A DNA stretch of 23,755 nucleotides from a virus. The number at the start of each line of letters is the position of its first letter. Positions within the stretch are counted from its first letter, which is position 1. The notes beneath the pieces were generated by a model. The model was not told the DNA's origin. It ran no database searches and saw nothing but the letters and a program-made list of their open reading frames with translations. The stretch lies in IMG/VR virus record IMGVR_UViG_3300027779_000161, positions 1 to 23,755 of that record; one strand, written 5' to 3'. Position numbers and translations under genes: made by a program. Shown piece by piece: positions 2,461-16,407 of the stretch.

Positions 2461-2871
2461 CTATTTTAAAGCCTTCCACATCTGAGATGCGCCAGTAACT
2501 AGAGAACTGATGTCTACTCCAGCATCGCGCGGGTCGCCTAAGTCGACGGATCCTGGGACTGCTTCTCTCGACTCGTAAGACGATGCGGGATCGGTGCCCT
2601 CAAACAGATTGACTCCATTATAAGAATCCTTCCCTATCGCGTCCATTAATTTTTTTCTTTGCTGTCGCCTCTGCTCCTGAAGTTTCTGAGAGTTATCTTC
2701 TGGAGGGGGTGCTGGCGTGTGCTTGACTTGGCTTTCCGTAATCACAGCAGACTGCATCCCTTTGGCAACTTCTGCCACAACGTTGGACAGCAGCCCTTCT
2801 TCTATCAATACTTCATTGATACATTCTTTTACTAATGGTTTGATTAGCATTTTCAATTCTTTCTTGTTCAT
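2461..2871 (-). CDS. Small protein with amphipathic, prohead-leader-like N-terminus
   Basis: This 136-residue protein starts with alternating charged and hydrophobic residues (M-N-K-K-E-L-K-M-L-I-K-P-L-V-K-E), resembling a divergent member of the leader family seen on other proteins in this window. At residues 23-26 it has I-E-E-G, a candidate site for the prohead protease, which in T4 cleaves after I/L-x-E. The middle is Gln/Arg-rich and likely disordered or coiled (residues 60-80), and the C-terminus is short and mixed. It follows the 693-residue scaffold-like gene with a ten-base gap, so a head-core or internal-protein role is a reasonable inference. No named family recognised. Confidence 0.55.
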   Translation of the reverse strand: MNKKELKMLIKPLVKECINEVLIEEGLLSNVVAEVAKGMQSAVITESQVKHTPAPPPEDNSQKLQEQRRQQRKKLMDAIGKDSYNGVNLFEGTDPASSYESREAVPGSVDLGDPRDAGVDISSLVTGASQMWKALK

Positions 2872-2881
2872 TAAATATCCA

Positions 2882-4963
2882 TTAAATGTTTGCTAGTTCT
2901 TTCCAGCGACCAAGGCGCTTATCGTCTTGTTCGGTCAATAGTGCTTGCCTCAAGAGGTGCTCCAGAAGAGCATCGATTTGATTGGGGGCATACTGCCTCT
3001 TCTGTAGCTGTATCTTTAGGGCTAAACCTATCTGGTCGAAGAGCGACTTAAGCTTTTCGGGATCGCTAAAGACTGCTACTGCTTCTGGAGTCTTGAGTGG
3101 ATCTCCTTCAGGTGCTTGTTCGAAGGCTCTTACTAAAATTTTACCAATTGCGCTGTCTCCGGCGTCCATCTTTGCGCGCGCAGTGTCAGCACTGCGATCC
3201 TTGAGGTTGCTAGCTTCGGGTTCTCCAGCGGCGGCAGCGCGTTGAGCCTGCTGTGCTTTTAGTTTGTCTTTAAGCGCTGCAATTTCTTCTGGGCTCTTCT
3301 GTTGAGCGCTAGCGGAAGGATCTGTCGGTGCCGGCGCAGCTTGACCTTGTGCACGTTGTGCCATGGCTTGTTGGGCGACTTGATTTGGGTCGGAAGAATC
3401 TCCGCCAGGGGGTACTGCTGCTGGCGGTGCGACTGGGTCTTCTTCATCTGGAACCGGCGGCCGTTTCATCCGCGTGGAAGTTCGGGTATCTGTGACCTTC
3501 ATCTGCTCCTTCAAGCTAACCGCAATTTTAGAAGCTAGCCTCTTTAAGTTGCCCTCTGAAACTGGGATTTCGCGGCTGTTCAAATAGTCCACCATCTTGG
3601 TGGCAATCAAGGCTGCTGCGTCCTGCGGGAGCCCAAGGTCTTGGATAACGGCTACGAGCGGCTCTTCTTGCTCTGCGTTGGAGTTTGTAATTGATAGTGG
3701 GGTTTCTTGGGGGAGAGCTTCTCCGCCGCCAGTGGCATCGGGCTCCGCCTCAGTCTCGTCTCCCAGCTTCTCTTTTTCCTGTTCAAGCTCAGCTTCATTT
3801 TCAGCAACTTCAATGGCGCTCTCAATATTCTCTTCCGGATCTCCAGTTTGGAACTGACCCAATACAGCGCGGACGATATCCTGCTGTAACTCTGGTAGAT
3901 CTTCCAGCTTCTGTTTGCCGGCAGCAACAGCAACAAAGGCGGCTGCATTTTCGGCGCCGATAGCATCCTCGAGGGCTCCTCCAAGCTGTTGAACAACTTG
4001 CGGTTGCTGTTGTAACTGCTGTACTCCAGCTTGGGCGTAGGTATTCTGCATGCCTGTATACCCTTGGGTCGCAGCTTTAAAGTCGCCCTGCCCAACAGAT
4101 TGAGCAACCGATGAGGCTTGGCTAGCGCGCTCTCCCGAATAAGGGGCAGCCTGTGCGGGATCCACGGGATCCAACATCTTAACTAGCTTCTTTAGCATTC
4201 CTTGCCGTGATGAACCAAACAATCTCTTTCCAATCATTAAGGCGCCGGCGCCGATAACAAGCGGCGCGCCGACCATAGCCAGAGTTGCAAGGAGACCACC
4301 GGCTGTCATAGCGGTACCGCCGGCGACCCAAGTGGCTAAACCACCGACACCTTGAGCGGCGCCGGCTAACAAGCCACCATACCCGGCTGCTGCGCTAGTT
4401 GCAGCGCCGCCTACGGCGCTAGCTACACCTGGCACCATCGCTGCAGCGCCGGCTGCGGCGCCGCCTAGGGCAGCTTTGCCGGCGGAGACCTCTTCTAACT
4501 CTTCTAACTCTTCTTCTTCTTTCATGAACTTGTAGGTTCTAGAGAGATCTTGAAGTAGCGCCTCTGTATATTGTTTGAGTGTGACGACAATAGAGTTGGC
4601 AACTTCAACGGGCATCTGACCGTTTAATGCTGATTCTTTAACTGACTGGTACATAAGTCCGAGAGATGTGACTCCCTTCTCAAATTTATCAGAGTCTTTG
4701 ATATTTGGAAACCCTGGATAATCTTTTTCGAACTGATCGAACATGTTCTTGACTGTCTTGTTTGCGGCTTGATCCATTGATCGCTTAAGAGTGCCACTAA
4801 CTTTTGTACTATGCTCTGGGTCTTTTCCTCCGATCATGTTTTTAAGAGAGTCCCAGACTCCCTCGTTGATCAGTCCTGATTCGATCGATTCGTATAATGC
4901 TTTTTCGCGGCGAGCGCGCTCTATCTTTTCTTTGAGAGCGGTCTTTAATTCTTCATTAATCAT
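2882..4963 (-). CDS. Large scaffold-like or internal head protein with Gly/Ala hydrophobic block
   Basis: This 693-residue protein lies directly after the prohead protease, overlapping it by eight bases, where T4 encodes its scaffold gp22. Residues 1-40 form a charged helix ending in L-I-N-E-G-V-W-D, a candidate I-x-E cleavage site. Residues 50-150 are helical, followed by an acidic E-E-E-L-E-E-L-E-E run. Residues 162-249 are an unusual Gly/Ala-rich hydrophobic block, long enough for two or three membrane passes. Residues 255-650 are Gln, Ala, Pro and Glu-rich, largely low complexity. The C-terminus is helical, ending K-E-L-A-N-I. The layout fits a head-core or ejected protein, and the hydrophobic block could insert into a membrane during DNA delivery. 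Family not recognised. Confidence 0.55.
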   Translation of the reverse strand: MINEELKTALKEKIERARREKALYESIESGLINEGVWDSLKNMIGGKDPEHSTKVSGTLKRSMDQAANKTVKNMFDQFEKDYPGFPNIKDSDKFEKGVTSLGLMYQSVKESALNGQMPVEVANSIVVTLKQYTEALLQDLSRTYKFMKEEEELEELEEVSAGKAALGGAAAGAAAMVPGVASAVGGAATSAAAGYGGLLAGAAQGVGGLATWVAGGTAMTAGGLLATLAMVGAPLVIGAGALMIGKRLFGSSRQGMLKKLVKMLDPVDPAQAAPYSGERASQASSVAQSVGQGDFKAATQGYTGMQNTYAQAGVQQLQQQPQVVQQLGGALEDAIGAENAAAFVAVAAGKQKLEDLPELQQDIVRAVLGQFQTGDPEENIESAIEVAENEAELEQEKEKLGDETEAEPDATGGGEALPQETPLSITNSNAEQEEPLVAVIQDLGLPQDAAALIATKMVDYLNSREIPVSEGNLKRLASKIAVSLKEQMKVTDTRTSTRMKRPPVPDEEDPVAPPAAVPPGGDSSDPNQVAQQAMAQRAQGQAAPAPTDPSASAQQKSPEEIAALKDKLKAQQAQRAAAAGEPEASNLKDRSADTARAKMDAGDSAIGKILVRAFEQAPEGDPLKTPEAVAVFSDPEKLKSLFDQIGLALKIQLQKRQYAPNQIDALLEHLLRQALLTEQDDKRLGRWKELANI

Positions 4964-5573
4964 TTTTTATCTCCAAAATAATATCATTTAATAGGCGATT
5001 AACCTTATCTGACTTGTTAAAAATGTTTGAGGATCCCATGTCTTTGGCTTCTTTCATCATAAAAGCGCCGGGGGTTGACGGCTCAGAAACAAAATCAAAA
5101 CATATAAGCTGGAAGTCATCCTCGACCATGGTTTGTCCGTTGCTTTCTGTGACTGATCCCATCCCGCGTGAGGATATCCCCAACTTTACTCCAGACTCGA
5201 CCAAAGAGCGAAGTATCTTTCCAGAAGGTGTTTCTAAAAGTTGGACTTTACCCATCACATTTTTACCCTCAAACCACACTTCTGTTACCATATGAGAGGC
5301 ATTCTTAAGATTAATGACCGAGTCATCCGGGTGATCTAACTCGCCTAGGGCTCTTCGCTCTTTGACAAGTTTCTTATAATTCTCGACTTCGCGCATCAAA
5401 ATGCGACTTGGATACACTCTTCCATTGCCGTTCTGTGTGTCAGCTTTTTGCATAACTCCAGACAGTATCATACCGCCATCGGTTATGAATTTCTTTTCTG
5501 CTTCGGTGAGGAGGTCTTGGCAGACACCGCCTTCGCATAGTTCGTAATATTCTCTTAAAAGTACTTTAGCCAT
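4956..5573 (-). CDS. Prohead core protease, T4 gp21-like
   Basis: The product from ATG 5573 is 205 residues, close to the 212 of T4 gp21, a serine protease that matures the prohead by cutting core and capsid proteins. An N-terminal extension to 5732 in the same frame overlaps the upstream gene and lacks leader character, so I reject it. Visible family features are G-R-V-Y-P near residue 51, G-E-L-D-H-P with the likely catalytic His at 81, and G-I-S-S-R-G with the likely catalytic Ser at 134 or 135. F-D-F-V-S-E-P-S follows, with a probable acidic residue near 160. The start is one base after the upstream stop, implying coupled translation. Several neighbours carry candidate I/L-x-E cleavage sites near their N-termini and are its probable substrates. 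Confidence 0.85.
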   Translation of the reverse strand: MAKVLLREYYELCEGGVCQDLLTEAEKKFITDGGMILSGVMQKADTQNGNGRVYPSRILMREVENYKKLVKERRALGELDHPDDSVINLKNASHMVTEVWFEGKNVMGKVQLLETPSGKILRSLVESGVKLGISSRGMGSVTESNGQTMVEDDFQLICFDFVSEPSTPGAFMMKEAKDMGSSNIFNKSDKVNRLLNDIILEIKND

Positions 5574-5574
5574 T

Positions 5575-6327
5575 TTATTGTGCTGCCCCTTTGAGGTCTT
5601 TTGGCAGGCGATACTGTGGAACTCCTGCCTGCATGGGTTTTCCTCTCTTAATCCAATCTTCTTCTTGGGCTTTTCGCTGCGCCACTTTCTGTTGTGCTCC
5701 CTTGTCGCCGCGCTGTGCGGCAAGGTTATCATGGTGCTGCTGTTGTTTGAGAAGGGCTGCGGTGGTGGATCCTGGCGCGCCTGGTTGAATGCGCTCCTGG
5801 GGGGGTGCAGTGCCGTCTTCGGGGGGTGCGCCGGCGGCTTGCGGGGTCGTCATTTTTGTAATAGTTTGTGACACATTTCCAATCGCTGTTTGCAATTGGG
5901 CGAGTGACGTTTTAACTTCCGGCGTGTCGAAAAGCCCCAGCGCCTGCGCATTCTTGGCAAGATCTTCGTAGGCGCCGCCGAGGGTCTGGTACGACTTTCC
6001 TAAGACTGCCTTGGCTTTCGCCATTTGGGCTTTTTGGGCGCCTTGTGCTGCCGTGTCTTCTGCATCTGCTGCCATGGCTGCTGCTGCGTCCTTCTCTCCC
6101 ACAGCGCCCAGAGCCGCAGAGACTCCTCTCTTTTTAAGCGACGAAGCGGCGCTGCCCACTTGTGACAATCCGCCCTTTACGGCTCCCTTGACTTGTGTGA
6201 CGCCGCGGCCGACCTTTCGGATAGCGTCCATAACACCTTCATCGATCTCACCGTTTTCTATCATTGCATCAAGCTCCTCAAGAATGAGGTGCTGCAGCTC
6301 TGACTCTGTTATGGATATATTACCCAT
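5575..6327 (-). CDS. Leader-tagged putative internal head protein
   Basis: This 250-residue protein begins with the shared amphipathic leader (residues 4-19, I-S-I-T-E-S-E-L-Q-H-L-I-L-E-E-L). At residues 28-34 it has I-D-E-G-V-M-D, a candidate prohead-protease site close to the I-N-E-G-V-W-D of the 693-residue protein. After the leader, residues 35-75 are basic and Gly/Ala/Ser-rich, residues 80-170 are Ala/Gln-rich helix, and residues 175-235 are Gln, Pro and Gly-rich. No enzyme motif is visible. It sits just upstream of the protease gene, where T4 encodes the small core proteins gp67 and gp68, so a prohead core role is likely. A good Shine-Dalgarno (AAGGAAG) precedes the ATG. Confidence 0.6.
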   Translation of the reverse strand: MGNISITESELQHLILEELDAMIENGEIDEGVMDAIRKVGRGVTQVKGAVKGGLSQVGSAASSLKKRGVSAALGAVGEKDAAAAMAADAEDTAAQGAQKAQMAKAKAVLGKSYQTLGGAYEDLAKNAQALGLFDTPEVKTSLAQLQTAIGNVSQTITKMTTPQAAGAPPEDGTAPPQERIQPGAPGSTTAALLKQQQHHDNLAAQRGDKGAQQKVAQRKAQEEDWIKRGKPMQAGVPQYRLPKDLKGAAQ

Positions 6328-6372
6328 AGCTAACTTCCTTTACAACAATGTCTAACTGGTTGCAACATCCAC

Positions 6373-6681
6373 TTATTTGTCCAGATATTTATGTTCATGT
6401 TTAACTCCGTGATCTCCAAAGATCATATTTAAAATATAAGAGGTGCCAGACGACAGCCACCCTAAAAGGAAGAAATTAGCCACTGTCACATCAAAACTAA
6501 ATAGTTCTGTAAACGGAGAAAGAAGCATTAAAAACCAGCCAACGTGAAATCCTATACACATTGGACACTTAAATAGGGCGCCAAGTTTTCCTTTTGTTGG
6601 TCGTATTCTGTCAAATATTGAGCCATAAACGATGCACTGGGTAAGCCCATATGCTGATAAAATAAAAAATAATAATTCCAC
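6373..6681 (-). CDS. Small membrane protein, DUF1360-like
   Basis: This 102-residue protein starts at GTG 6681; GGAG seven bases upstream, inside the end of the preceding gene, decides the start. It has a hydrophobic N-terminal segment (residues 2-20), a C-P-M-C-I-G-F-H-V-G motif leading into a second hydrophobic segment (about 39-62), and a third (about 66-90). The Cys-containing C-P-x-C-x-G-F/W motif after a short basic loop is reminiscent of small bacterial membrane proteins classified as DUF1360, whose function is unknown. Why a membrane protein lies in the head-assembly cluster is unclear. It could be made late and act at the host membrane, or be part of the virion. Confidence 0.55.
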   Translation of the reverse strand: MELLFFILSAYGLTQCIVYGSIFDRIRPTKGKLGALFKCPMCIGFHVGWFLMLLSPFTELFSFDVTVANFFLLGWLSSGTSYILNMIFGDHGVKHEHKYLDK

Positions 6682-6685
6682 TTCT

Positions 6686-7228
6686 CTACTCCATTGTATA
6701 CATATAGTTTAGTGCGTATGGATCTCTAACGAATCCCCTTCTTATCGAGCCCTGGTCGGTTGATTGGGGAACTTCTCCAAGCTCAGTGGAGTCTTCCTTA
6801 TCTGGATGGACTAGTTCATCATCGTTCATAGAAATAATTGCCTCTGTGTTTTCAAAATATGGTCTCTCTTCGTCGATAAACATGGATAAATTTATTAAAG
6901 CTAGTTTTGGGGCGCTGACATCTTCTTTTATTGGTTGGTGCAGGGTTCCCTCCAGGGCTCCGTAGAACGCGCCGGCTTGAACAGACTCTGGCACTACAAT
7001 TCCCTTCTTAACTAAATGAGTCATCAATCTATTTTGGGCTCCGTAAACCAAATCATTCATCGTATCTTTTGGAAATGTCGTAATTTTATTTCCAGAAGGG
7101 GATAATACTACATCGATGTCACCATGATCAAAAACCATTATGTCTCCGTTTAGTGCTTGGCGAGCGTTTAACTCAAGGCGTACTTTCTTTTGATTAGCCT
7201 TTGCTCCAATCTTAATTACTATCGCCAC
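6686..7228 (-). CDS. Conserved-looking head-cluster protein of unknown function
   Basis: This 180-residue protein starts at GTG 7228, supported by a perfect AGGAGG nine bases upstream. It overlaps the preceding gene by 17 bases. The N-terminal half is beta-prone (A-I-V-I-K-I-G-A and D-I-D-V-V-L-S-P-S-G), and the C-terminal 60 residues are acidic with likely flexible linkers. There is no signal peptide, transmembrane segment or catalytic motif. Its position between portal and protease genes suggests a head, neck or core role, but I do not recognise the family and assign no function. Confidence 0.5.
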   Translation of the reverse strand: MAIVIKIGAKANQKKVRLELNARQALNGDIMVFDHGDIDVVLSPSGNKITTFPKDTMNDLVYGAQNRLMTHLVKKGIVVPESVQAGAFYGALEGTLHQPIKEDVSAPKLALINLSMFIDEERPYFENTEAIISMNDDELVHPDKEDSTELGEVPQSTDQGSIRRGFVRDPYALNYMYTME

Positions 7229-8042
7229 TTTGTGATACCTCCTGTACGAGAGCTTGAGTCTTCAGGACGACAAGCAGAATTCGCTCGTTGATATTTTGTG
7301 TTTTATAACTGTTTAGTTCAGCAAGGACTTGAGAAGTCTTTTCTATCATTTCCTTGTCTTGATTGACATATTCCAACGCCTGGGCATCTTTTAACCGATT
7401 CTTTAATCTAGAAATCTCTTCATTGAGAAAGCTTTTTAGCTCTACCGCGTTGTCCATGAACGAAACAATATAGTGAGTTAAAAGCTGCTTCTGTTCATCT
7501 AAGAGTTCGGAACTGTACTTAGCATTAAATTTCTTAACAAAAGATTTTATAACCAAGGAATCAACGTCCTCAGTCTCGTCAGTGGAGTTAGTCAAGCTCA
7601 TATTGTCAACTATTATCTGTTCAAGGATAACACGATCTTTTGGAGAAGTAGCCATTGCGAATAGCTGAGAGATAGTGGCTAGCGTCTTATAATTCGGAAC
7701 AAAATTATCGAAGACCGATCCTTCTAGTTTTTTATTTATATCTCCAATTAGACGGCTTTGGTGAACGAAAAGATCTTTTGGGTCAATTAGCCTTTTTTGC
7801 AATGATGCCTCTCTTACAATTCTGTTGCCCGTCGACTTATTAATATCTTGACTTTCGTAAAGAGACCGGTAACACTCTAAATCACTTTTGAGTATACTAC
7901 CATTCTTGAAATGTTCTTTTATTATATCAACAATAGTCTGTTTTCTTTTTTCGTCCTTCTGCAGAATCGCAGAGGTTCCTTCTCGAATCAGAGCCTCATA
8001 TACAAATGCTGTGTTTCGCTTTTTATTGTGCTTTATCTTCAT
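7212..8042 (-). CDS. Helical protein downstream of portal, unknown function
   Basis: This 276-residue protein starts at ATG 8042, overlapping the 3' end of the portal gene by 20 bases. It is basic at the N-terminus (M-K-I-K-H-N-K-K-R-N) and otherwise almost wholly predicted helical, with a coiled-coil-like stretch around residues 205-245. No transmembrane segment or enzymatic motif is seen. It directly follows the portal gene, where T4 carries small head-core genes. A structural or chaperone-like role in prohead initiation is possible, but this rests on gene order only. Confidence 0.5.
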   Translation of the reverse strand: MKIKHNKKRNTAFVYEALIREGTSAILQKDEKRKQTIVDIIKEHFKNGSILKSDLECYRSLYESQDINKSTGNRIVREASLQKRLIDPKDLFVHQSRLIGDINKKLEGSVFDNFVPNYKTLATISQLFAMATSPKDRVILEQIIVDNMSLTNSTDETEDVDSLVIKSFVKKFNAKYSSELLDEQKQLLTHYIVSFMDNAVELKSFLNEEISRLKNRLKDAQALEYVNQDKEMIEKTSQVLAELNSYKTQNINERILLVVLKTQALVQEVSQSGDSN

Positions 8043-10014
8043 TTTCTTGCTCCATGATTGGTTTATTTTTTTCCTCTAGGTTTTCTAACAACGAACGGAT
8101 AGAGTTGTTCACTTCAAATAATCTATTCTCTTCTTTTAATTCATCTAATTTATAAGTAGACTGCTTTACCTCATAAATGCCCTTTGCGATACTTGGAATC
8201 GAATTGATTTCAGATCCAGGGAAGACTGACCGAGTAGAAGCGCCTCTTTTTTCATGATTATATTTTGAATTGTAATTGCGTATACGAGGGCCGCTATCGG
8301 ATCTTTTATCGCGATTAACTGGGTGATATACTTTCCCCTTGGCGCCGGGGGTAAGGCGAGGGGAATTTCTAGATCCGGGTGGCACTGCTAGAAGTGAAGA
8401 CTCGTCTCCGCCTGCAGCTACGTCGGCGCCTCCTGCCGGCATCTCCTCCGCTCCCATATCCATTTCGGCTCCCATGTCCATTTCACCGCCGAGGTCGGCG
8501 CCCATGTCGCCACCGCCAACGGCGCCGGCAGTTTCGCCGGCTGCAGCTTGTTCTGCCACCTGCTGCAGTGAGGCATCGTGTTTACGATCGTAGTACATCT
8601 CTCGTTGATTGCGCATGAATTCTTCATGCGACATGCCAAAGATGTTATCTGCTACCCATGCGCGCGAGAAGTAACCCTCGGTGGCAGAAGCGGCTATATC
8701 AAATTTAGCTTTCCAGTGCTCGACTTCTTGAAGCTCTGCAATTTTAGATGGATTGTTGAGGGATAGACTAAAGGATAACAAATCGTCGCCGCGGAAACCA
8801 AGGGTATAGAGATGAATGATTCCGATCTTTTCAAGTTCGGAAATGATAACTCTCTGCAAGCGTTGAATAGTTCTTGCAAATCTAATGTCCTTCTGGGCTA
8901 ACGTGGTTTTATCCTCGGATGCTCCCTCCCCCATTGTAAGGTAGGCTTGTGGAATCTTAAGTGCTGCAAACAACTTGTCGCGAAGATACTTGACGTCATC
9001 AATCGCAGTTGTGTTTGTGCCGCCGGCGAGATTAGTAATCTCTGTGGCAGAGCCCGGGCGTACAGGAATAAAATAGTCCTCTTCGATACTCATGGGATTA
9101 TAACGTAGGTCAACTCGACCCGTAGATGCGTCGACAACAGAGTGTCTCTTCAGTTGCGTTACTATCTTCTCCATATATTGTTCGACGTCGTTTGGAGGGA
9201 TAGCTCCAACATCAATCTTGAATAGGCGGCGCTCTGATGACCTAATGACTCGATAAGCCATCATCGCATCTTCGACTAAAGTTAATTGGCGGAAAATCCT
9301 GCGAGCTGGCTCCAAGATAGAGGTGCCGTACGGTGCGTATTTATCATTACCTAAAATTCTAAAATGGGAAATCTGCCAGTTTTCGAAAGTCATACCAGCT
9401 GAGTTCCATTGATACTGGACATAGTTGGGGTTAGTAGAGTCTCCCCCTTCCAGTCTTTCGATCTCTCCAGACGGCAGCGCGATAACAGACTGTACTCCAT
9501 ATTTATCGTCAATATCCAAATAAACGAAGAGATCTCCATATTTGCACATTGTTCGCGCCCATCCGAAAAGATTATAATTAATACTTAATATGTTTTCATA
9601 GAGGACCGCCAACACTGCTTTTATTTCTTCGTTGGGACACCTGATGTTTAACATCGGTCTCAAGTCAGAATAGGTGGTCATCTCGTCTGCATAGATATCT
9701 AGCGATGAAGCTATCTCTGGCGTGTATTCCATTTGGTCAAAGTCAACATATCTCTCGGCGCGTGCTTGATTTTGCATCGCATTGGAGGCAATCGTGTCAA
9801 GAGGGTTGTTTACCGCCTTTTTAAACTGTTGTCCGGAGGCGGACTGAAATCTATTCGCAAACTTATCCAGATGCTGTCTACGGATGCGTCGACCGGACTG
9901 AGACCTATAATTGATGATAGGACCAGAAAACAATCTAGTCAAAGCTTTGAAAAGATTTGACTCGGTATTTCTGGGGTTTTTGGAGCTTACATGATTTCTA
10001 TTTCTTGGTGGCAT
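8023..10014 (-). CDS. Portal vertex protein, T4 gp20-like
   Basis: This 663-residue protein follows the large terminase by eight bases and has recognisable gp20 features. These are a helical N-terminal region with D-F-D-Q-M-E-Y-T-P-E-I-A-S-S-L-D-I-Y-A-D-E-M (residues about 92-112), a clip/stem region with G-A-x-P-P-N-D-V-E-Q-Y-M, and K-Y-L-R-D-K-L-F-A-A-L-K-I-P-Q-A-Y-L. The latter is the strongly conserved portal helix, followed by G-E-G-A-S-E-D-K-T-T-L-A-Q-K-D-I-R-F-A-R-T-I-Q-R-L. Portals form the dodecameric ring through which terminase pumps DNA. From about residue 490 to 545 there is a low-complexity Gly, Ala, Asp, Met and Glu tract, and the last 120 residues are basic then acidic. The length exceeds T4 gp20 (524 residues), mostly in this C-terminal region. 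Confidence 0.88.
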   Translation of the reverse strand: MPPRNRNHVSSKNPRNTESNLFKALTRLFSGPIINYRSQSGRRIRRQHLDKFANRFQSASGQQFKKAVNNPLDTIASNAMQNQARAERYVDFDQMEYTPEIASSLDIYADEMTTYSDLRPMLNIRCPNEEIKAVLAVLYENILSINYNLFGWARTMCKYGDLFVYLDIDDKYGVQSVIALPSGEIERLEGGDSTNPNYVQYQWNSAGMTFENWQISHFRILGNDKYAPYGTSILEPARRIFRQLTLVEDAMMAYRVIRSSERRLFKIDVGAIPPNDVEQYMEKIVTQLKRHSVVDASTGRVDLRYNPMSIEEDYFIPVRPGSATEITNLAGGTNTTAIDDVKYLRDKLFAALKIPQAYLTMGEGASEDKTTLAQKDIRFARTIQRLQRVIISELEKIGIIHLYTLGFRGDDLLSFSLSLNNPSKIAELQEVEHWKAKFDIAASATEGYFSRAWVADNIFGMSHEEFMRNQREMYYDRKHDASLQQVAEQAAAGETAGAVGGGDMGADLGGEMDMGAEMDMGAEEMPAGGADVAAGGDESSLLAVPPGSRNSPRLTPGAKGKVYHPVNRDKRSDSGPRIRNYNSKYNHEKRGASTRSVFPGSEINSIPSIAKGIYEVKQSTYKLDELKEENRLFEVNNSIRSLLENLEEKNKPIMEQENEDKAQ

Positions 10015-10022
10015 TTATTTTC

Positions 10023-11606
10023 TCACTTGATTATCCATTTATATTGACTGTATAAGTCTTCTGCTGCACCCATTTTATCAAATATATCATCTTTCTTGTA
10101 GCCCTGTTGTCCTTTAATTTGAGTATTCATGGTCGTTTTGCTGGTTCTAATGGCAGCTACAAAGGCTTTTTTATAGTTAAGTTCTCTAGCATTCGACTGC
10201 AGTGCTGTATCTCTTACCCAACAGGCAATTGCGAGCGCCATGACTAAATCATCATGGTAACCCTTCATTGCTTGGGGTTTTCCGTTCTTCCAAATAAACG
10301 TTTTCATTTCGTTGATGGTGCGCATTGAATATATTTTAATTAGTTTGTTTCTTATGAATTCTTCTAGTTTTGCTATGATTAATGGTCGGGTCTTCATTGT
10401 GGTTGTAAATCCTGGAACGGAATCGTTTCTATATTCGCCTTCATGCTGTTCGATATATGCGTGTGTCGACTTTATTGAATAGTACAAATTGGGATATGCA
10501 TATTCTGTTAGTTTATCTAATATTGAGTATCCAATATTGTTGTTCTCCACCACCATCATACAATTTCCATATTCTCTGCCAACTTGGTTTAGCATATTCG
10601 CATACATATCAAGAGTGGGCTTACCTTGATATTCCCCGACGGCTTCCAGGGTTTCTAATTTTATGATGTGAAATGTAGAATAATCTGCTCCGTCGCCGCG
10701 GGCAACATCTGCAACCAATAAATAATTACACGTGGGATCAAACTCTTCCCAGATCCAAAAATTGCGATCGAAGCCGGTGCGATGTTTAGGCTCACGCACT
10801 CCAGCTAGCAACCACTCCATACATGCGGGATCGATCACAGTCTCGCCTGATGTATTGAAGTTACATGCAAGCTCTTGCGCGATCTGTCGCTTTGACATAT
10901 TTCTTGTTTCTTTATTGTACCATTCTTCATCGCGGTCTGGGTGGACCTCCCACGGCAGCGTGGTTAACTTGAAGTTATTTGAGCCTCCGGAGGAATCAAC
11001 GCATGTCTTGTGAAACCAGTTGCCTACACCATTCGGCGTTGATAATGCGATGCAACGACCACCAGTAGATAGCGTTGGATACAAGCCCGTCCATAATTCT
11101 CCCAGCCCTTCGATATGAGCAGCCTCGTCGAGAACCAGCAAAGACAATGCTTCAGAACGACCGGCATCGCCAGATGTAGATGCAGCCTTAATCGAGGATC
11201 CATTAGAAAGCTCAAATGACGTTCGGTTATCTACGCTAATAGTTGCTATTCTTAGCCAGTCTGGGACATTCCGCATAATGTTTTTCACCTTCTTTACAAG
11301 GTTCCCTGCTGTGGCAAATTTGGTTGCCATAACTAGGATCGCTTTGTCTCTATGAAAAAGCATCATCCATACGACATAGCCGGCAGTAATTGTTGATATG
11401 CCGAGCTGTCGAGCTTTTAAAATTACATTAAAGCGATAGTCGTTAAAATCTTTGAGAAGTTCGTCTTGGAACTCGTAGGTATCAAAAATAATTAACCCGT
11501 GTATCGGGTGAGAGATTCTTGCATAATTGTTGAGAAAATAAGACGGATCTTTTCCGCACTTAAGTATCTCTTTTACTCTTTGTTTCTTGTCTAGCTGAAA
11601 GCTCAT
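10023..11606 (-). CDS. terL: Terminase large subunit, T4 gp17-like
   Basis: This 527-residue DNA-packaging motor has an N-terminal ATPase and a C-terminal RNase H-like nuclease. In the ATPase, the Walker A region reads L-K-A-R-Q-L-G-I-S-T (residues 63-72), Walker B is L-V-L-D-E-A-A-H (157-164), and the coupling motif is A-L-S-T-P-N-G (187-193). The nuclease metal ligands are likely D300 in V-A-D-V-A-R-G-D, E354 in V-V-E-N-N-N, and D452/D453 in Y-H-D-D-L-V-M-A. The P-loop lacks the usual G-K-T/S lysine, so K64 or R66 probably takes over, as in other terminases with deviant Walker A motifs. The start overlaps the upstream stop as ATGA, implying translational coupling. T4 gp17 is longer (610 residues). 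Confidence 0.93.
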   Translation of the reverse strand: MSFQLDKKQRVKEILKCGKDPSYFLNNYARISHPIHGLIIFDTYEFQDELLKDFNDYRFNVILKARQLGISTITAGYVVWMMLFHRDKAILVMATKFATAGNLVKKVKNIMRNVPDWLRIATISVDNRTSFELSNGSSIKAASTSGDAGRSEALSLLVLDEAAHIEGLGELWTGLYPTLSTGGRCIALSTPNGVGNWFHKTCVDSSGGSNNFKLTTLPWEVHPDRDEEWYNKETRNMSKRQIAQELACNFNTSGETVIDPACMEWLLAGVREPKHRTGFDRNFWIWEEFDPTCNYLLVADVARGDGADYSTFHIIKLETLEAVGEYQGKPTLDMYANMLNQVGREYGNCMMVVENNNIGYSILDKLTEYAYPNLYYSIKSTHAYIEQHEGEYRNDSVPGFTTTMKTRPLIIAKLEEFIRNKLIKIYSMRTINEMKTFIWKNGKPQAMKGYHDDLVMALAIACWVRDTALQSNARELNYKKAFVAAIRTSKTTMNTQIKGQQGYKKDDIFDKMGAAEDLYSQYKWIIK

Positions 11607-12364
11607 ACATCTTTCAAGGCCGCTATAACTTCTTCGCGATTTGCAAGGTCGCCGTCGCCGTCTAACACGATTATTTCTTCCATTCCATCGGTGCGTAGCA
11701 TATCGATAAGTTCTGCATCAGCCATTTTAGCGAACCCATGAGGGTCTAAGACGTCATATACTTCGGTCTCGTCTCCCATATCATGGTAGTCTTCGTCTCG
11801 GTTGCCCGGTACTCCGGAAATAGAGTGAGAGCCCCATGAGATACCAGCCATTTCTAAAATCTTCTCAAAAGATTTGGCTGCCAAATGTTCTCTCATTGGT
11901 CCCAAGCTAATCGCTGGTCTTCCGCCGGCGCCGGGGGAGTATAGAGTCTCGGGATCTTCTTCGGCATCTCCCATCTCAACTCCAGGAATCTGAGCGAACA
12001 CTGTCTGGAAAAGTTCTGACACCTGTTCGGGATCGCGTCCTTGAATCATCTGGCTGATAGAGGCAATGATATCATCGTCAGACATATCGGATGGACCTGA
12101 GCGATCTTGAAATCCAGAATATTCACTCTCCGGTGCATCGTCTGGGGGCGGAAAAGCTTGTGTTTCGGCGCCATGAATGTCAGTCGGGGGAACGTCCGGA
12201 GGCGGTGGTATTTTGCGCTCATCATCGCCCATCCAGTCGGGTCGAGGACCGCCCTTAATATGGGCGATTAAATCATCAACCTTGCTCTCGCTGATTTGAA
12301 GACCCCCTTCTTTAAGATATTCTTCTAGAATAATCCGATATAGATCATTACGATTTATATTCAT
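11603..12364 (-). CDS. Acidic leader-tagged protein next to terminase
   Basis: This 253-residue, strongly acidic protein begins with M-N-I-N-R-N-D-L-Y-R-I-I-L-E-E-Y, the same leader plan as other tagged proteins here. At residues 17-20 it has L-K-E-G, a candidate prohead-protease site. Residues 45-100 are Pro/Asp-rich and probably disordered. Residues 100-253 look folded, with a possible acidic loop at D-G-D-G-D near residue 237, which could bind a divalent metal, though no EF-hand is complete. It occupies the place where a small terminase subunit is often found, but I see no helix-turn-helix or gp16-like features. The tag suggests a packaged protein instead. Its stop overlaps the terminase start. 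Confidence 0.5.
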   Translation of the reverse strand: MNINRNDLYRIILEEYLKEGGLQISESKVDDLIAHIKGGPRPDWMGDDERKIPPPPDVPPTDIHGAETQAFPPPDDAPESEYSGFQDRSGPSDMSDDDIIASISQMIQGRDPEQVSELFQTVFAQIPGVEMGDAEEDPETLYSPGAGGRPAISLGPMREHLAAKSFEKILEMAGISWGSHSISGVPGNRDEDYHDMGDETEVYDVLDPHGFAKMADAELIDMLRTDGMEEIIVLDGDGDLANREEVIAALKDV

Positions 12365-12366
12365 GG

Positions 12367-12900
12367 TTACTCCTTCCGGGTGTCGTTTTTAGGTCTAGTT
12401 CCGAGGCCGCCTTGATCTAGGAATGTTTTCCACTTGGTATCAATCGTATCTGCCGATGGGGCGTCGATCATCATTTCTTCCGAAAGCTCTCCCACTTTGA
12501 AGTGTAGTTTGGCGGTAAGCCATGAACGTACTCTGGATGAATTCTCTACTCGGATATCAACTTCTCCCTCCTTGGTGAGCGAAACTGAATTTCCAGTTAC
12601 CTTTTTATATTCCTTCTTGAGCCAACTAGAGATGTCCACAATTCTCTGTTCAGTCTCCTCTTCGAATCCTCCAGCATAGACTTCTTTCAATTGAATCTCA
12701 GACATGTAACTCAGACACATCATATTGCCGTAAAATTTTACGTTAAAGCCATCCATAACACGCTGATCAATGAGAGCATCTCCCTCTTCTCTGCGTAGTG
12801 CGCCGGTCTTAATTGGTTCATAGTCTTCTCCAAGCGCGCCATCGTAGGCATTTGCTGCCGCTTGCGATAACCCTTGAATTATTTCATATACTGTTGCCAT
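12367..12900 (-). CDS. Unknown protein upstream of terminase cluster
   Basis: This 177-residue protein starts M-A-T-V-Y-E-I-I-Q-G-L-S-Q-A-A-A-N-A-Y-D-G and seems to be a mixed alpha/beta soluble protein. It has no leader motif, transmembrane segment or known catalytic motif. A central stretch (S-S-W-L-K-K-E-Y-K-K-V-T-G-N-S-V-S-L) is helix followed by strands. It overlaps the upstream Cys-rich gene by 17 bases and ends two bases before the next ATG, so it is co-translated with the packaging genes. I do not recognise it; a virion or packaging accessory role is only suggested by position. Confidence 0.45.
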   Translation of the reverse strand: MATVYEIIQGLSQAAANAYDGALGEDYEPIKTGALRREEGDALIDQRVMDGFNVKFYGNMMCLSYMSEIQLKEVYAGGFEEETEQRIVDISSWLKKEYKKVTGNSVSLTKEGEVDIRVENSSRVRSWLTAKLHFKVGELSEEMMIDAPSADTIDTKWKTFLDQGGLGTRPKNDTRKE

Positions 12901-13297
12901 TATTTGGTCTCCATCCTTTTTGCCATCTTTCCTCTCTATCTTCTACAAATTTAATATAACACAAATGGCAGCAATCAAATTTAAGAAGACAAACATCATC
13001 CATAGATTTCTTTGGGAAGTTCCCGCAGACAGAACACGTTTTTAGAGATTCTCTATTAAGTAGTTTTTTTGTAACCTTTATGCCATTAACCTCAATTTTA
13101 TCTTGCCATTGTTTATTTTGAGATGTCTTTGAGTAAAGCTCTTTCATTTGTTCGACATATTCTTGCTCTTTAGCTTCATCCCAATTAGAGCGAGGATTTA
13201 CAATTGTTTCGTCTCCGTATTTTTCTGATATAGCTTTTTCGATTTTTGCTATCTGATTTGGGTCTTTATCTTTCATTTGTTGCTTTATATACTCCAT
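12884..13297 (-). CDS. Putative zinc-binding protein, unknown function
   Basis: The product from ATG 13297 is about 137 residues; a second in-frame ATG at 13276 (starting M-K-D-K-D-P-N) is equally plausible, and the upstream extension to a TTG at 13333 has no support. The N-terminal half is charged helix (I-A-K-I-E-K-A-I-S-E-K-Y-G). The C-terminal half has C-S-V-C-G-N-F-P, then after about 16 residues C-C-H-L-C-Y-I-K-F-V-E, a four-cysteine arrangement compatible with a zinc ribbon or treble-clef fold. It ends with an Arg/Trp-rich basic segment. This could be a small nucleic-acid-binding protein; no nuclease HNH residues are evident, so I do not call it endonuclease VII. It overlaps both neighbours. 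Confidence 0.5.
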   Translation of the reverse strand: MEYIKQQMKDKDPNQIAKIEKAISEKYGDETIVNPRSNWDEAKEQEYVEQMKELYSKTSQNKQWQDKIEVNGIKVTKKLLNRESLKTCSVCGNFPKKSMDDVCLLKFDCCHLCYIKFVEDREERWQKGWRPNNGNSI

Positions 13298-13688
13298 ATG
13301 AGGCTGCAGTACCAATGAGGATCCCACCAGCAAAATACAACCATTTGTGACGGGGTGAGGTTTTTTTTAGTGAGTCTGCAAGAATATTAATTTCTTTGTC
13401 CTTCTGTATTATAAACAAATCGTACTCACTTGTTAAGGCTTTGTGTTCAATTCTCAAATTCTCTAACTTAAAGTCGTACTCTTCTTTTTGAATCTTTAAC
13501 TGATAATCAATTTTGATATCGCAGGCGTACAGGGCGAGATCGTAACGCGACAGCATCTTTGCCATGGCTTTCTCATCAAATATAACGCCGGCAAACGGTG
13601 CGGGTGCTTTATACTCCAGTATGGAAAATTTGGCCGGCTCGGTGGCATTTACCGAGAGACTCAGCATTAGAAGAAGATTAAGGAGCAT
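13266..13688 (-). CDS. Secreted membrane-anchored coiled-coil protein, likely lysis cassette
   Basis: I start this product at ATG 13688 (140 residues) rather than at an upstream TTG, because it then begins directly with a signal peptide (M-L-L-N-L-L-L-M-L-S-L-S-V-N-A) and a plausible signal peptidase site after V-N-A. Residues 30-45 contain A-P-A-P-F-A-G-V-I-F-D, followed by a long charged coiled coil (about residues 55-112). A C-terminal hydrophobic segment (Y-F-A-G-G-I-L-I-G-T-A-A-S-Y-G-V-Y) follows. The topology places the coiled coil in the periplasm, anchored near the C-terminus. It follows a spanin-like gene and a holin-like gene, so a role in envelope disruption or its timing is inferred. 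No lipobox is seen. Confidence 0.5.
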   Translation of the reverse strand: MLLNLLLMLSLSVNATEPAKFSILEYKAPAPFAGVIFDEKAMAKMLSRYDLALYACDIKIDYQLKIQKEEYDFKLENLRIEHKALTSEYDLFIIQKDKEINILADSLKKTSPRHKWLYFAGGILIGTAASYGVYKATNER

Positions 13689-14061
13689 ATTCGATACCAA
13701 ATTTAGTTTCTATATCTTTAATTAGTGCTTCTTTGTCGTGCCTGAACTTTCTTTTATATTCGTTATTCTTTTTCTCTCGAAGGACTTCGAGTTCTTCTTG
13801 GGCTTTTTTATACTCTTCTTCGATTTCAGAAATGGATTCCAAAAAGCTTTCCATCAGGAGTTGCTTCTCTTCTATTTCTCGCTTGTGTATTTCTTTTAAT
13901 CCGTCGACCTGGGCTTGGTAAGACTCTATTTGTGTTTCATACGCAGTTTGCATGAGCTTATAATCGCGACTGTTCTTAAGAGCTATAACGACCAAAAGCA
14001 ACACTATTAGTATTGCTTTCCAATTCTTCAGAGCAAATTCTAGTATCTTCTGTTTAATCAT
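13678..14061 (-). CDS. i-spanin-like protein (Rz-like)
   Basis: This 127-residue protein has a short cytoplasmic N-terminus, a single strong transmembrane helix (residues 15-28, W-K-A-I-L-I-V-L-L-L-V-V-I-A-L), and then an unbroken charged coiled coil (about 35-112). This is the topology of inner-membrane spanins (Rz type), which join an outer-membrane partner to fuse the two envelopes in the last lysis step. It overlaps the holin-like gene by eight bases upstream and the secreted coiled-coil gene by 11 bases downstream. No Rz1-like lipoprotein was found in the other frames here. The identification is topological, since spanins share little sequence; other membrane-tethered coiled-coil proteins cannot be excluded. 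Confidence 0.55.
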   Translation of the reverse strand: MIKQKILEFALKNWKAILIVLLLVVIALKNSRDYKLMQTAYETQIESYQAQVDGLKEIHKREIEEKQLLMESFLESISEIEEEYKKAQEELEVLREKKNNEYKRKFRHDKEALIKDIETKFGIEYAP

Positions 14062-14251
14062 TATATCCTTTTAAGCGAGCGACCCCATCAATAATAGTCT
14101 GCCCTCCAATATAGATTGCTGAAATAATCACCCAGTCTTCGCTCGTAACATGTCCAGCAAGAGTGAGACCTGTTGCTGTTAACCATACCATCAACTTACG
14201 AGAAGTAAGTTTGGCTAACCACGTGTCTATGAATGCCTGTGCTTTTGCCAT
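14054..14251 (-). CDS. Holin-like small membrane protein
   Basis: This 65-residue protein starts at ATG 14251, or at an adjacent GTG at 14254, behind GGAG. It has two hydrophobic stretches, L-M-V-W-L-T-A-T-G-L-T-L-A-G-H-V and W-V-I-I-S-A-I-Y-I-G-G-Q-T-I-I. A short hinge containing T-S-E-D separates them, and the tail is charged (V-A-R-L-K-G-Y-N-D). The size, two-segment topology and the S-R-K-L-x-V-W plus Y-I-G-G-Q-x-x-I-D pattern resemble small phage holins. Holins time lysis by permeabilising the inner membrane. It is the first of three adjacent membrane proteins; no endolysin is visible in the window. Confidence 0.6.
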   Translation of the reverse strand: MAKAQAFIDTWLAKLTSRKLMVWLTATGLTLAGHVTSEDWVIISAIYIGGQTIIDGVARLKGYND

Positions 14252-14298
14252 CACTTATCACTCCAATGTCGAGTCCGACCGGACTCTTCTTTTTCCGG

Positions 14299-14493
14299 TC
14301 AGCCATCTTCTTCTATTTTAGATCTACACATCTCGTCGGCTTCATCTGCGGATAAACTATCTGCGCGTTCACCTGCTGCCTTATCTTTTTGCGCACAAGC
14401 CCAGCGGCGCTGTTTCTCAGAGGAAACTTCATCTAATACCCCCTCAAGTTCTTCTTTAATGATCTGTGTGAGTTGGGACTTAGCGACTTTCAT
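14299..14493 (-). CDS. Small leader-tagged Cys-containing protein
   Basis: This 64-residue protein begins M-K-V-A-K-S-Q-L-T-Q-I-I-K-E-E-L, one of the clearest copies of the shared leader. L-D-E at residues 20-22 is a candidate cleavage site. After it, the mature part would be about 42 residues: R-R-W-A-C-A-Q, then a charged linker, then D-E-A-D-E-M-C-R-S-K. The two cysteines could form a disulphide or bind metal together with other ligands. No transmembrane segment. It lies two bases after the 94-residue gene and just before the lysis genes. I infer a packaged small protein; its biochemical activity is unknown. Confidence 0.55.
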   Translation of the reverse strand: MKVAKSQLTQIIKEELEGVLDEVSSEKQRRWACAQKDKAAGERADSLSADEADEMCRSKIEEDG

Positions 14494-14494
14494 T

Positions 14495-14779
14495 TTATTT
14501 GTATTTGTCGCCCACTCTATGCGCTATGCTCTGGTGGACTTGAAGAAACTCTGGCATTGCTGCTCGAACTGCCTCTTCGGTTAAATCTCCAGTATACCAC
14601 TTCTGAAAAAGTTCGGGCGCATTGAGCTTTAAAAACCATGGTGAGGCGTCGTCCTCTTCCAATACGCATTCTAGTAATTCCGATGCGGAGCAGTCGGGCT
14701 CTTCTTTAGCTAACTCTAATACTGGCGTTTTTGATGTGTTGCTAACTATCCGCTTCCATATCCTTGCAAGTAAACTCAT
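14495..14779 (-). CDS. Unknown 94-residue protein
   Basis: The product begins M-S-L-L-A-R-I-W-K-R-I-V-S-N-T-S, a short basic amphipathic segment different from the leader of its neighbours. It continues as an acidic helical protein (E-L-L-E-C-V-L-E-E-D-D-A-S-P-W-F). Single tryptophans and the L-K-L-N-A-P-E-L-F-Q-K-W-Y stretch suggest a small folded domain. Three bases separate it from the upstream stop and one base from the next start, so it belongs to the same polycistron as the tagged genes. I do not recognise it. Confidence 0.4.
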   Translation of the reverse strand: MSLLARIWKRIVSNTSKTPVLELAKEEPDCSASELLECVLEEDDASPWFLKLNAPELFQKWYTGDLTEEAVRAAMPEFLQVHQSIAHRVGDKYK

Positions 14780-14782
14780 TTC

Positions 14783-15031
14783 TTACTCCGATGCCGGAGC
14801 AAGATCGGGCGTTGAGTCCGCAGTGCCTCCGGCGCCAGCACCACCTTCGCTGCCCATAGATTTCATCATGGCAGTAAGCTCGGGAAGCATTTGAACCAAC
14901 TGCATAATCTGCGGCAAGTATTTGACCACTTGTCCGATCATCGCTGGGTTTTCATTAAGTTGCTGTTCTGCTTGAACCTGTTCTATCTCTTCCGATATTA
15001 GTTTCTTAAGTTGTGATTTTGTGATTTTCAT
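14783..15031 (-). CDS. Small leader-tagged protein, Met/Leu-rich
   Basis: This 82-residue protein starts M-K-I-T-K-S-Q-L-K-K-L-I-S-E-E-I, a canonical copy of the shared leader. L-N-E at residues 25-27 could be the processing site. The middle is a hydrophobic amphipathic helix with many Met, Leu and Gln (Y-L-P-Q-I-M-Q-L-V-Q-M-L-P), and the C-terminus is Gly/Ala-rich and acidic. The hydrophobic middle might associate with membranes or self-assemble. The ribosome-binding site and part of the 5' gap are supplied by a copy of the repeat described below. Confidence 0.55.
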   Translation of the reverse strand: MKITKSQLKKLISEEIEQVQAEQQLNENPAMIGQVVKYLPQIMQLVQMLPELTAMMKSMGSEGGAGAGGTADSTPDLAPASE

Positions 15032-15036
15032 TGGTT

Positions 15037-15070
15037 ATTCCTTTTATGTCGCTAATCCATTCATACTTAG
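15037..15070 (-). repeat. Cassette-spacer repeat, copy nearest the lysis genes
   Basis: On the minus strand this reads TAAGTATGAATGGATTAG then CGACATAAAAGGAAT. It supplies the TAA stop of the upstream 169-residue gene and the AAAAGGAA ribosome-binding site of the next gene. It matches the copy at 15583-15616 over 34 bases with only three differences. Confidence 0.8.
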
Positions 15071-15576
15071 TATTCTTCTTTTGATAATGCATCATACATT
15101 TCGTCCGAATCATTATAGGTTACGGTTTCACCATCTGGGAGATGTACTACAATGACCGGTCGCCCATCGTCGGCGATCTCCACCGATGCTTCTACTCCAA
15201 ATTTAGAAGCGATATCTTGCACATCGGTCTCCTCAACTTCTTCGGGAGTGTAATCTGCTCCTGCCCACGACTGTTTGTTAACAGTAAGTTGATAACGATC
15301 CTCTAACATTCTTACATTAACTTGCCAGTCGTTTCCCAAAGCCTGACGCACCTCTTCAGCTTCTGCTTCTTTTTGGGCGCGGTGCTGCTTGGTTTGATGT
15401 TTGTCATCATGCGCTTTGTTAGCTTGTCTTACCTTCTTCTCGTCGTCCGCACCCCATGGCTCCATGCCGGGCATGCTTTCATTCATAACCTTTGAAAGCT
15501 CTTCTTTAATACCATCTGTCTTCTCGTCCATAAAGTAACGAGGATCAATAAATTTCTTGTTTTTTCTTATAGCCAT
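15067..15576 (-). CDS. Putative packaged protein with different N-terminal tag
   Basis: This 169-residue protein begins M-A-I-R-K-N-K-K-F-I-D-P-R-Y-F-M-D-E-K, a basic leader unlike the M-K-I type but of similar length. I-K-E-E-L at residues 23-27 contains a candidate I-x-E site. Residues 40-75 are charged and His/Lys/Glu-rich, probably a flexible helix. Residues 80-169 look like a compact alpha/beta domain, with alternating strands (W-Q-V-N-V-R-M-L-E-D-R-Y-Q-L-T-V and R-P-V-I-V-V-H-L-P-D-G-E-T-V-T-Y). It is bounded on both sides by the cassette-spacer repeat. No known catalytic motif. Confidence 0.5.
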   Translation of the reverse strand: MAIRKNKKFIDPRYFMDEKTDGIKEELSKVMNESMPGMEPWGADDEKKVRQANKAHDDKHQTKQHRAQKEAEAEEVRQALGNDWQVNVRMLEDRYQLTVNKQSWAGADYTPEEVEETDVQDIASKFGVEASVEIADDGRPVIVVHLPDGETVTYNDSDEMYDALSKEEY

Positions 15577-15582
15577 TATATT

Positions 15583-15616
15583 AATCCTTTTATGTTGTTA
15601 ATCCATTCATACTTAG
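15583..15616 (-). repeat. Cassette-spacer repeat, second copy
   Basis: The minus-strand core TAAGTATGAATGGATTAACA is followed by ACATAAAAGGATTAATAT before the next ATG. It carries the TAA stop of the 76-residue gene and the ribosome-binding site of the 169-residue gene. Confidence 0.8.
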
Positions 15617-15843
15617 TTTTTGCGGGCAGGTAATTTGCCAGCATCTACCAACTTTTGTCTTGCCCGTTCTCGTTCGACGGGATCTGCATAATTCTTTTCA
15701 AGCTCATCTTCCATTCTTTCTCTTTCAATCTCTTCGGGACTCATAGCTGGGACACCAGTATCAATGTCGAGTGCTCCCTCGGATATAGCATTTGATATCT
15801 CTTCTTTGATAATCTGCTTAAGTTGTTGTTTTGTAATCTTCAT
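15613..15843 (-). CDS. Small leader-tagged protein, charged
   Basis: This 76-residue protein starts M-K-I-T-K-Q-Q-L-K-Q-I-I-K-E-E-I, the consensus form of the shared leader. It carries I-S-E-G-A-L-D at residues 20-26, a strong candidate prohead-protease site similar to those in two larger proteins of the head cluster. The predicted mature part of about 54 residues is highly charged helix (P-E-E-I-E-R-E-R-M-E-D-E-L-E-K) ending K-L-P-A-R-K-N. It is flanked by spacer repeats on both sides, making it the simplest cassette of the array. Function unknown. Confidence 0.55.
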   Translation of the reverse strand: MKITKQQLKQIIKEEISNAISEGALDIDTGVPAMSPEEIERERMEDELEKNYADPVERERARQKLVDAGKLPARKN

Positions 15844-15849
15844 TTCATT

Positions 15850-15882
15850 ATTCCTTTTAAGTTGCTAATCCATTCATACTTA
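15850..15882 (-). repeat. Cassette-spacer repeat, third copy
   Basis: The minus-strand core TAAGTATGAATGGATTAGCA is followed by ACTTAAAAGGAATAATGAA just before the ATG of the 76-residue gene. It supplies the stop codon of the 175-residue gene and the next ribosome-binding site. Confidence 0.8.
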
Positions 15883-16407
15883 TTCTGCTGCTGCTCGGCG
15901 CTTATCCAGCGCAGCCAACACCTCATAACCACTTTTAACTTTAGGCGGCATCTTGCTAACATCCCCATTATACTGACCTAGAATTATTTCTGCTGGAGTC
16001 ATATTTGGGTTATCTTTAAGTTGAGCAATTTGCTTAGCCATCATCGCTAATCTTTTAGCGTTTTCTTTTTCTTGTTGTGAAAACTTTTCATCGTGCGCCT
16101 GCTGCTGTTGAGCCATTTTTTGCCCATGCGCTTGCTGTTGTTGGGCTGGTGCTGCGTCCGACATGTGTTTAGCTTTGCATTGGGGGTTTTTAGCGCACAT
16201 CTCTCTCCCTTTATCGGTGAGTGGGGCGCCGGTGGCAGTATCAAAGTGTTGTGCTGGTGTAGCCTCCTTCATGTGTTTAGCTTTGCATTCAGGGTTTTTG
16301 GCGCACATCTCTCTCCCTTTATCGGTGAGGGGGGCACCGGAGGCGGTATCGAAATGTTGTTCTTGTTCGTTTAGGAAATTATTCCAATTTTCAAATAGTT
16401 GTTTCAT
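15880..16407 (-). CDS. Putative packaged protein with two 36-residue Cys/His repeats
   Basis: I choose ATG 16407 (175 residues), whose ATGA overlaps the stop of the tubulin gene; a longer frame to 16491 lies wholly inside that gene. The N-terminus M-K-Q-L-F-E-N-W-N-N-F-L-N-E resembles the second common type of T4-like capsid-targeting leader, with L-N-E as a candidate cleavage site at 12-14. Residues 17-52 and 53-88 are near-identical 36-residue repeats containing H-F-D-T-A, G-A-P-L-T-D-K-G-R-E-M-C-A-K-N-P, then C-K-A-K-H-M. Each could bind metal through C-x5-C-x3-H. Residues 89-115 are Gln-rich, and the C-terminus is helical (A-E-I-I-L-G-Q-Y-N-G-D). Function unknown. Confidence 0.55.
   Translation of the reverse strand: MKQLFENWNNFLNEQEQHFDTASGAPLTDKGREMCAKNPECKAKHMKEATPAQHFDTATGAPLTDKGREMCAKNPQCKAKHMSDAAPAQQQQAHGQKMAQQQQAHDEKFSQQEKENAKRLAMMAKQIAQLKDNPNMTPAEIILGQYNGDVSKMPPKVKSGYEVLAALDKRRAAAE
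16144..16359 (-). repeat. In-frame tandem duplication, 2 x 108 bases
   Basis: Bases 16252-16359 and 16144-16251 are two adjacent, nearly identical 108-base units encoding the 36-residue Cys/His repeats of the packaged-type protein. Most differences are single bases. The high DNA identity points to a recent duplication or ongoing homogenisation. Confidence 0.85.

Follow-up and report, generated by a model that had tools for sequence, protein, structure and literature searches.

T4 gp21 cuts after L/I-X-E (PMC9026906), and T4 head proteins shed N-terminal propeptides, capsid targeting sequences (CTS) included (PMC5694885). Its substrates comprise gp22, gp67, gp68, internal proteins, Alt, gp23 and gp24, and the locus described here resembles this system in having an S77 protease whose His and Ser are conserved. 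An initial annotation, which had proposed a protease motif in N-terminal leaders at this locus, gave the rule of T4 gp21 as I/L-x-E, in agreement with the published one.

The DNA analysed, called the window here, is a single virus contig of 23,755 bases with its late genes on the (-) strand. A 205-aa S77 (gp21-type) prohead protease is encoded at 4956..5573 (-), as judged by matches to Pfam PF03420 (Peptidase_S77; E = 2.9e-31), to the PHROG head maturation protease (E = 6e-56) and to the T4 gp21 crystal chain 5jbl (E = 5e-19). Thus, the gp21-like protease that the initial annotation placed in this cluster was confirmed. Its His81 (GELDHP) and Ser134 (GISSRG) align with GELNHP and GVSSRG of T4 genomic gp21; the catalytic His and Ser positions are alanine in the 5jbl construct, which we take to be inactivating changes. 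The likely start is the ATG at 5573, inside a listed 258-aa ORF, and was placed there because MAKVLLREYYELCEGG is common to the relatives. Domain homology, the catalytic His and Ser and the location in the cluster all agree with membership of the T4-type prohead proteases. The gene sits between two substrate-candidate genes, encoding a 250-aa and a 693-aa protein. From the portal-protease-scaffold-capsid cluster, the window contains, besides the protease, a terminase and a portal of the T4 type (Pfam and PHROG profile matches), and the scaffold and major capsid protein (MCP) genes are downstream in relatives. No MCP was recognised in the window. The MCP is present in 21 of 25 related records, several kb downstream of the protease and alongside a gp22-like scaffold; therefore, the contig probably ends short of the MCP gene. 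The protease itself has a possible N-terminal self-cleavage site, L-T-E↓A, at about residue 24 (5502..5510, (-); ↓ marks the cut), where L-T/N-E is conserved in relatives and most T4-like proteases compared have [IL]xE or a similar triplet in the same alignment region. Another candidate, LCEGG, is doubtful as a self-cleavage site, being LCDGG in some relatives.

Five peptides of the window had been proposed to share a motif, and all five were found where they had been reported: INEGVWD (residues 32–38 of the 693-aa protein), IDEGVMD (28–34, 250-aa), ISEGALD (20–26, 76-aa), IEEGLLS (23–29, 136-aa) and LKEG (17–20, 253-aa). Five of the eight helical-leader proteins in the window contain [IL]xEG in residues 15–40 against a mean of 0.49 on shuffling (P = 5e-5), a post hoc figure since the pattern was drawn from the same data; the 64-, 82- and 327-aa proteins lack it. 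As an independent test, we read the genes surrounding the protease in 80 loci encoding protease relatives, using the core pattern [ILVM]xEG[AVILMF][WLMIF] in residues 10–95, which was written after the neighbours had been seen. Near genes were those lying within 1.2 kb upstream or 3.5 kb downstream of the start of the protease. Of these 325 protease-flanking genes, 84 contained the pattern, where shuffling gave 2.8 on average; of 578 genes elsewhere, 1 did, with 4.8 expected. Members of one family are related to each other, and the counts are therefore not statistically independent, but composition does not account for the difference between near and far genes. Neighbour genes of very different sequence carry the same element, as in IDEGVLDRLK, LDEGVWEKAK, ITEGIWSSLK, IDEGAWDALK, ELDEGLWDRIK, VDEGFIDSVK and LLEEGLLSNVV. 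Comparable positions of the peptides, as first described, did not prove general, for in relatives the site of the downstream gene lies anywhere from residue 29 to 83, behind either of two unrelated leader types. In two loci, insertions split E-G from W-D-x-x-K (IEEG-MMSN-LWDKAK in L058, ITEG-K-IWDSLK in L014), and the E-G and Trp parts are therefore separable. I/L-x-E at a conserved place, by which gp21 substrates can be judged, was found in the families of the 693-, 250- and 136-aa proteins and not in the 76- and 253-aa proteins.

The 693-aa protein (2882..4963, (-)) is encoded directly downstream of the protease. From this position and the conserved site in relatives, it is a probable internal head or core protein; it has no Pfam or PHROG match. 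Its site, INE↓GVWD (4850..4870, (-)), has E34, G35, W37 and K41 invariant among 20 aligned relatives, and these four make up half of the eight invariant columns of an alignment with 21% mean column identity. Because the members were chosen for carrying the motif, the alignment is biased towards E and G, though not towards K41. In this family, the charge per 30 residues changes from −4.0 before the site to +2.6 after it, and in 69% of members the largest charge change falls no more than 6 residues from the site. The predicted model is poor (mean pLDDT 60), with coil at residues 26–33. A long hydrophobic Gly/Ala-rich stretch occupies residues ~164–248 of the protein, and this stretch could span membranes, like ejected proteins.

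The 250-aa protein (5575..6327, (-)), directly upstream of the protease, stands in the place of T4 gp67/gp68, as judged by gene order against T4 and by 20 relatives. In its site, IDE↓GVMD (6226..6246, (-)), D and E are invariant in the 20 relatives and G is kept in 19 of them (95%), one lineage having IDEN. The charge change is larger, from −6.7 before to +4.2 after the site per 30 residues, and the largest change lies within 6 residues of it in 88% of the family. The 136-aa protein is the product of the second gene downstream of the protease (2461..2871, (-)); its site is IEE↓GLLS (2785..2805, (-)), and E24, E25, G26 and L28 are invariant in 42 aligned relatives. No charge change was found at the site in this family. 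An AlphaFold model of the protein (mean pLDDT 66) has helices at 3–24 and 27–40, with the break exactly at E25-G26. The hydrophobic moment of the new N-terminus is higher than in shuffles for the 136-aa family (z 2.1) and not above them for the 250-aa (z 0.7) and 693-aa (z 0.4) families; an amphipathic new N-terminus was therefore rejected as a general feature. The substrate families have no detectable relatives in Pfam or PHROGs, and family searches gave no useful result; likewise, 50,697 phage records contained no detectable match to the 693-aa protein, the 136-aa protein or a query made of 66 N-terminal residues of the 250-aa family.

The other two examples behaved differently. LKEG of the 253-aa protein (12305..12316, (-)) is replaced in its family by EEYLKEEG, EEYAREEG or EEYARDMG, and is therefore peculiar to this contig. 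ISEGALD of the 76-aa protein (15766..15786, (-)) has no motif-bearing orthologue among the related loci. This protein belongs to a large class with the leader MKITKSQLKQIIKEE. Among 48 distinct helical-leader proteins, nearly all from outside the protease-flanking families, [ILV]xEG occurred in 4 against 2.4 expected (P = 0.20), and ISEG is probably a chance match. Thus, the proposal of a recurrent conserved motif holds for the 693-, 250- and 136-aa proteins, whose sites are kept in diverged relatives, and was dropped for the 253-aa (not conserved) and 76-aa (chance level) proteins; enzyme and probable substrates lie side by side, as had been suggested, for the same three proteins and not for the other two. 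The region 14299–15843 (-) and the related loci encode many small proteins with the MKITKSQLKQIIKEE leader, ~90 of them distinct in the related loci; their bodies are unrelated, and most lack an EG site. They form a large candidate set that may be targeted by one leader, for which a literature search by sequence gave no match.

Sites in other head proteins bear on the specificity of the protease. In 20 relatives, the predicted cut of the MCP follows LRE, and the next residue is S (13), G (2), A (2), T, N or Q; the LLRE segment aligns with VSE↓A (immuto) and ISE↓A (Mel-JY01), at the place where T4 is cut. Relatives also have a second leader class that resembles the T4 CTS, with the sequences MSEMKLIMENWxxFLxE and WSSFE..WRxFLxE. 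Among these W-type leaders, 30 of 39 distinct ones have [LIV]xE ending six residues past the Trp (1.5 expected), and Gly comes next after L-x-E in 1 of the 30 T4-like leaders, the other 29 having another residue. Because the next residue varies in the MCP and in W-type leaders, the ordinary I/L/V-x-E rule most likely holds for the protease, and Gly as a requirement of the protease was rejected. The initial annotation had read Gly, a hydrophobic residue and Asp as a phage-specific cleavage specificity; the predicted MCP site LLRE↓S and the non-Gly leaders speak against it. The added Gly and W-D-x-x-K are probably features of the substrates, as the sequence comparisons suggest. In relatives, the gp22-like scaffold shows an enrichment of [ILV]xE[GAS] (123 vs 48 expected). 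There and in other helical proteins, [ILV]xE before a charged or polar residue is in excess as well, and the scaffold enrichment thus partly reflects helical sequence. MCP LLEG was rejected as the main cut, since LLEG of T4 gp23 ends at E18 yet the propeptide has 65 residues (PMC5694885); it could be an additional cut inside the propeptide. In the 276-aa protein, the E of ALIREG is largely conserved and followed mostly by G, A, S or N, and ALIREG is absent in the homologues of immuto and Mel-JY01.

Several other genes of the window were recognised. A 175-aa protein (15880–16407, (-)) begins with MKQLFENWNNFLNEQ, a T4-CTS-like leader with L-N-E, behind which are two near-identical repeats of ~42 residues (HFDTA..GAPLTDKGREMCAKNP). 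The gene at 16404–17555 (-) encodes, in a T4-like phage, a 383-aa member of the tubulin/FtsZ GTPase family (Pfam Tubulin, E = 4.5e-8; FtsZ chains, E ~4e-11); the region of its 3' end is shared with the next gene. A 1049-aa protein (17566–20715, (-)) joins a calcineurin-like phosphoesterase at its N-terminus to an SMC/AAA region at its C-terminus and looks like a single-chain fusion of T4 gp47 and gp46 (SbcD-SbcC). A DnaG-like primase (21878–22816) adjoins a gene for an FKBP-type peptidyl-prolyl isomerase (22912–23415, (-); Pfam FKBP_C, E = 1.6e-21).

We consider it likely that T4-gp21-type cleavage after E strips N-terminal leaders from the 250-, 693- and 136-aa head proteins, most likely at INE↓GVWD, IDE↓GVMD and IEE↓GLLS. 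In favour of cleavage are the occurrence of the motif beside the protease only, the invariance of the sites, the two unrelated leaders, the charge jump in two families, the helix break in the 136-aa protein, the S77 protease with its catalytic His/Ser, the T4 specificity and propeptides (PMC9026906, PMC5694885) and the scaffold enrichment. Against it are the helical bias in that enrichment, the lack of a charge change in the 136-aa family, and the conserved W and K at three and seven residues past the cut, which go beyond the known needs of gp21-type enzymes. This last point would be explained if E-G-hydrophobic-W-D-x-x-K were an uncut docking motif through which the core proteins bind one partner in common, be it protease, scaffold, portal or shell lining: the invariance extends beyond E34 and G35 to W37 and K41, more than the L/I-X-E rule of T4 requires, and the G-W-D part is missing from the predicted MCP cut site. 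However, I/L/V-x-E at P3–P1 fits the T4 rule, the site is a charge boundary, the E-G and W-D-x-x-K parts are split by insertions in two loci, and one lineage of the 250-aa family retains IDE and loses G; we regard docking as distinctly unlikely.

An N-terminal module of leader plus site might also have been copied or recombined onto neighbour genes and simply inherited, with no protease site. The downstream genes of relatives do have the site in common despite widely diverged C-terminal parts, but unrelated leader types precede it, so that leader and site are not one travelling module, and half of all invariant columns of the 693-aa family fall within the site, which needs selection. Such shared ancestry is improbable as the explanation. 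Chance, by which I/L-x-E-G would arise from the composition of E-, I- and L-rich helical leaders, accounts for the 76-aa class and for LKEG of the 253-aa protein, but fails before the excess near the protease and the invariance in three families; it was refuted by conservation for the 693-, 250- and 136-aa families, and as a general account it is very improbable.

From the conservation, the location, the charge boundary and the protease homology, all of which were observed, we infer cleavage, targeting and a role of the new N-terminus in the following way. The 250-, 693- and 136-aa proteins would be prohead core or internal head proteins, each brought into the assembling prohead by its N-terminal leader, which is acidic in the 250- and 693-aa families. 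The S77 protease would cut after the Glu of [I/L/V]-x-E↓G, the leader would be lost, and the mature chain would begin G-hydrophobic-[W/L/M]. The protease probably needs [I/L/V]-x-E only, like that of T4, and Gly and W-D-x-x-K may be conserved for the sake of the substrates, probably for a function of the new N-terminus. Tentatively, and with low confidence, we suggest that the cut site E↓G-hydrophobic-[W/M/L]-D-x-hydrophobic-K also acts as a bipartite element, in which loss of the acidic leader unmasks a basic, membrane- or DNA-active N-terminus, so that maturation would arm several otherwise unrelated internal or ejected proteins at once. For an uncultured marine group of T4-like phages with core proteins invisible to homology, the site flags the head proteins likely to be processed and predicts their exact mature N-termini. 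With it comes a question that T4 does not pose, namely why the residues after the cut are as strictly conserved as the cut itself.

This locus belongs to an uncultured marine relative of T4, in which the I/L-x-E-G signature most likely marks where the protease trims head proteins that otherwise differ from each other, and it extends the known T4 mechanism rather than adding a new one. As in T4, the protease adjoins core-protein genes, the sites are of the I/L-x-E type and head proteins have N-terminal leaders (PMC9026906, PMC5694885); unlike in the T4 gp21 system, the substrate families lack detectable relatives in the databases searched, and G, W, D and K after the cut are conserved. Short N-terminal leaders common to otherwise unrelated proteins recall the T4 CTS, and the W-type class ends in F-L-x-E; in contrast, the main helical leader MKITKSQLKQIIKEE differs from the CTS, and its members far from the protease are not enriched in [ILV]xEG. 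The proteases of giant phages (phiKZ gp175, SPN3US gp245) also cut after the Glu of a short motif and act on many propeptide-bearing head proteins (PMC5694885, PMC10052503); the third-last residue before their cut is S or A (S/A-x-E, A-x-E), whereas it is I, L or V here.
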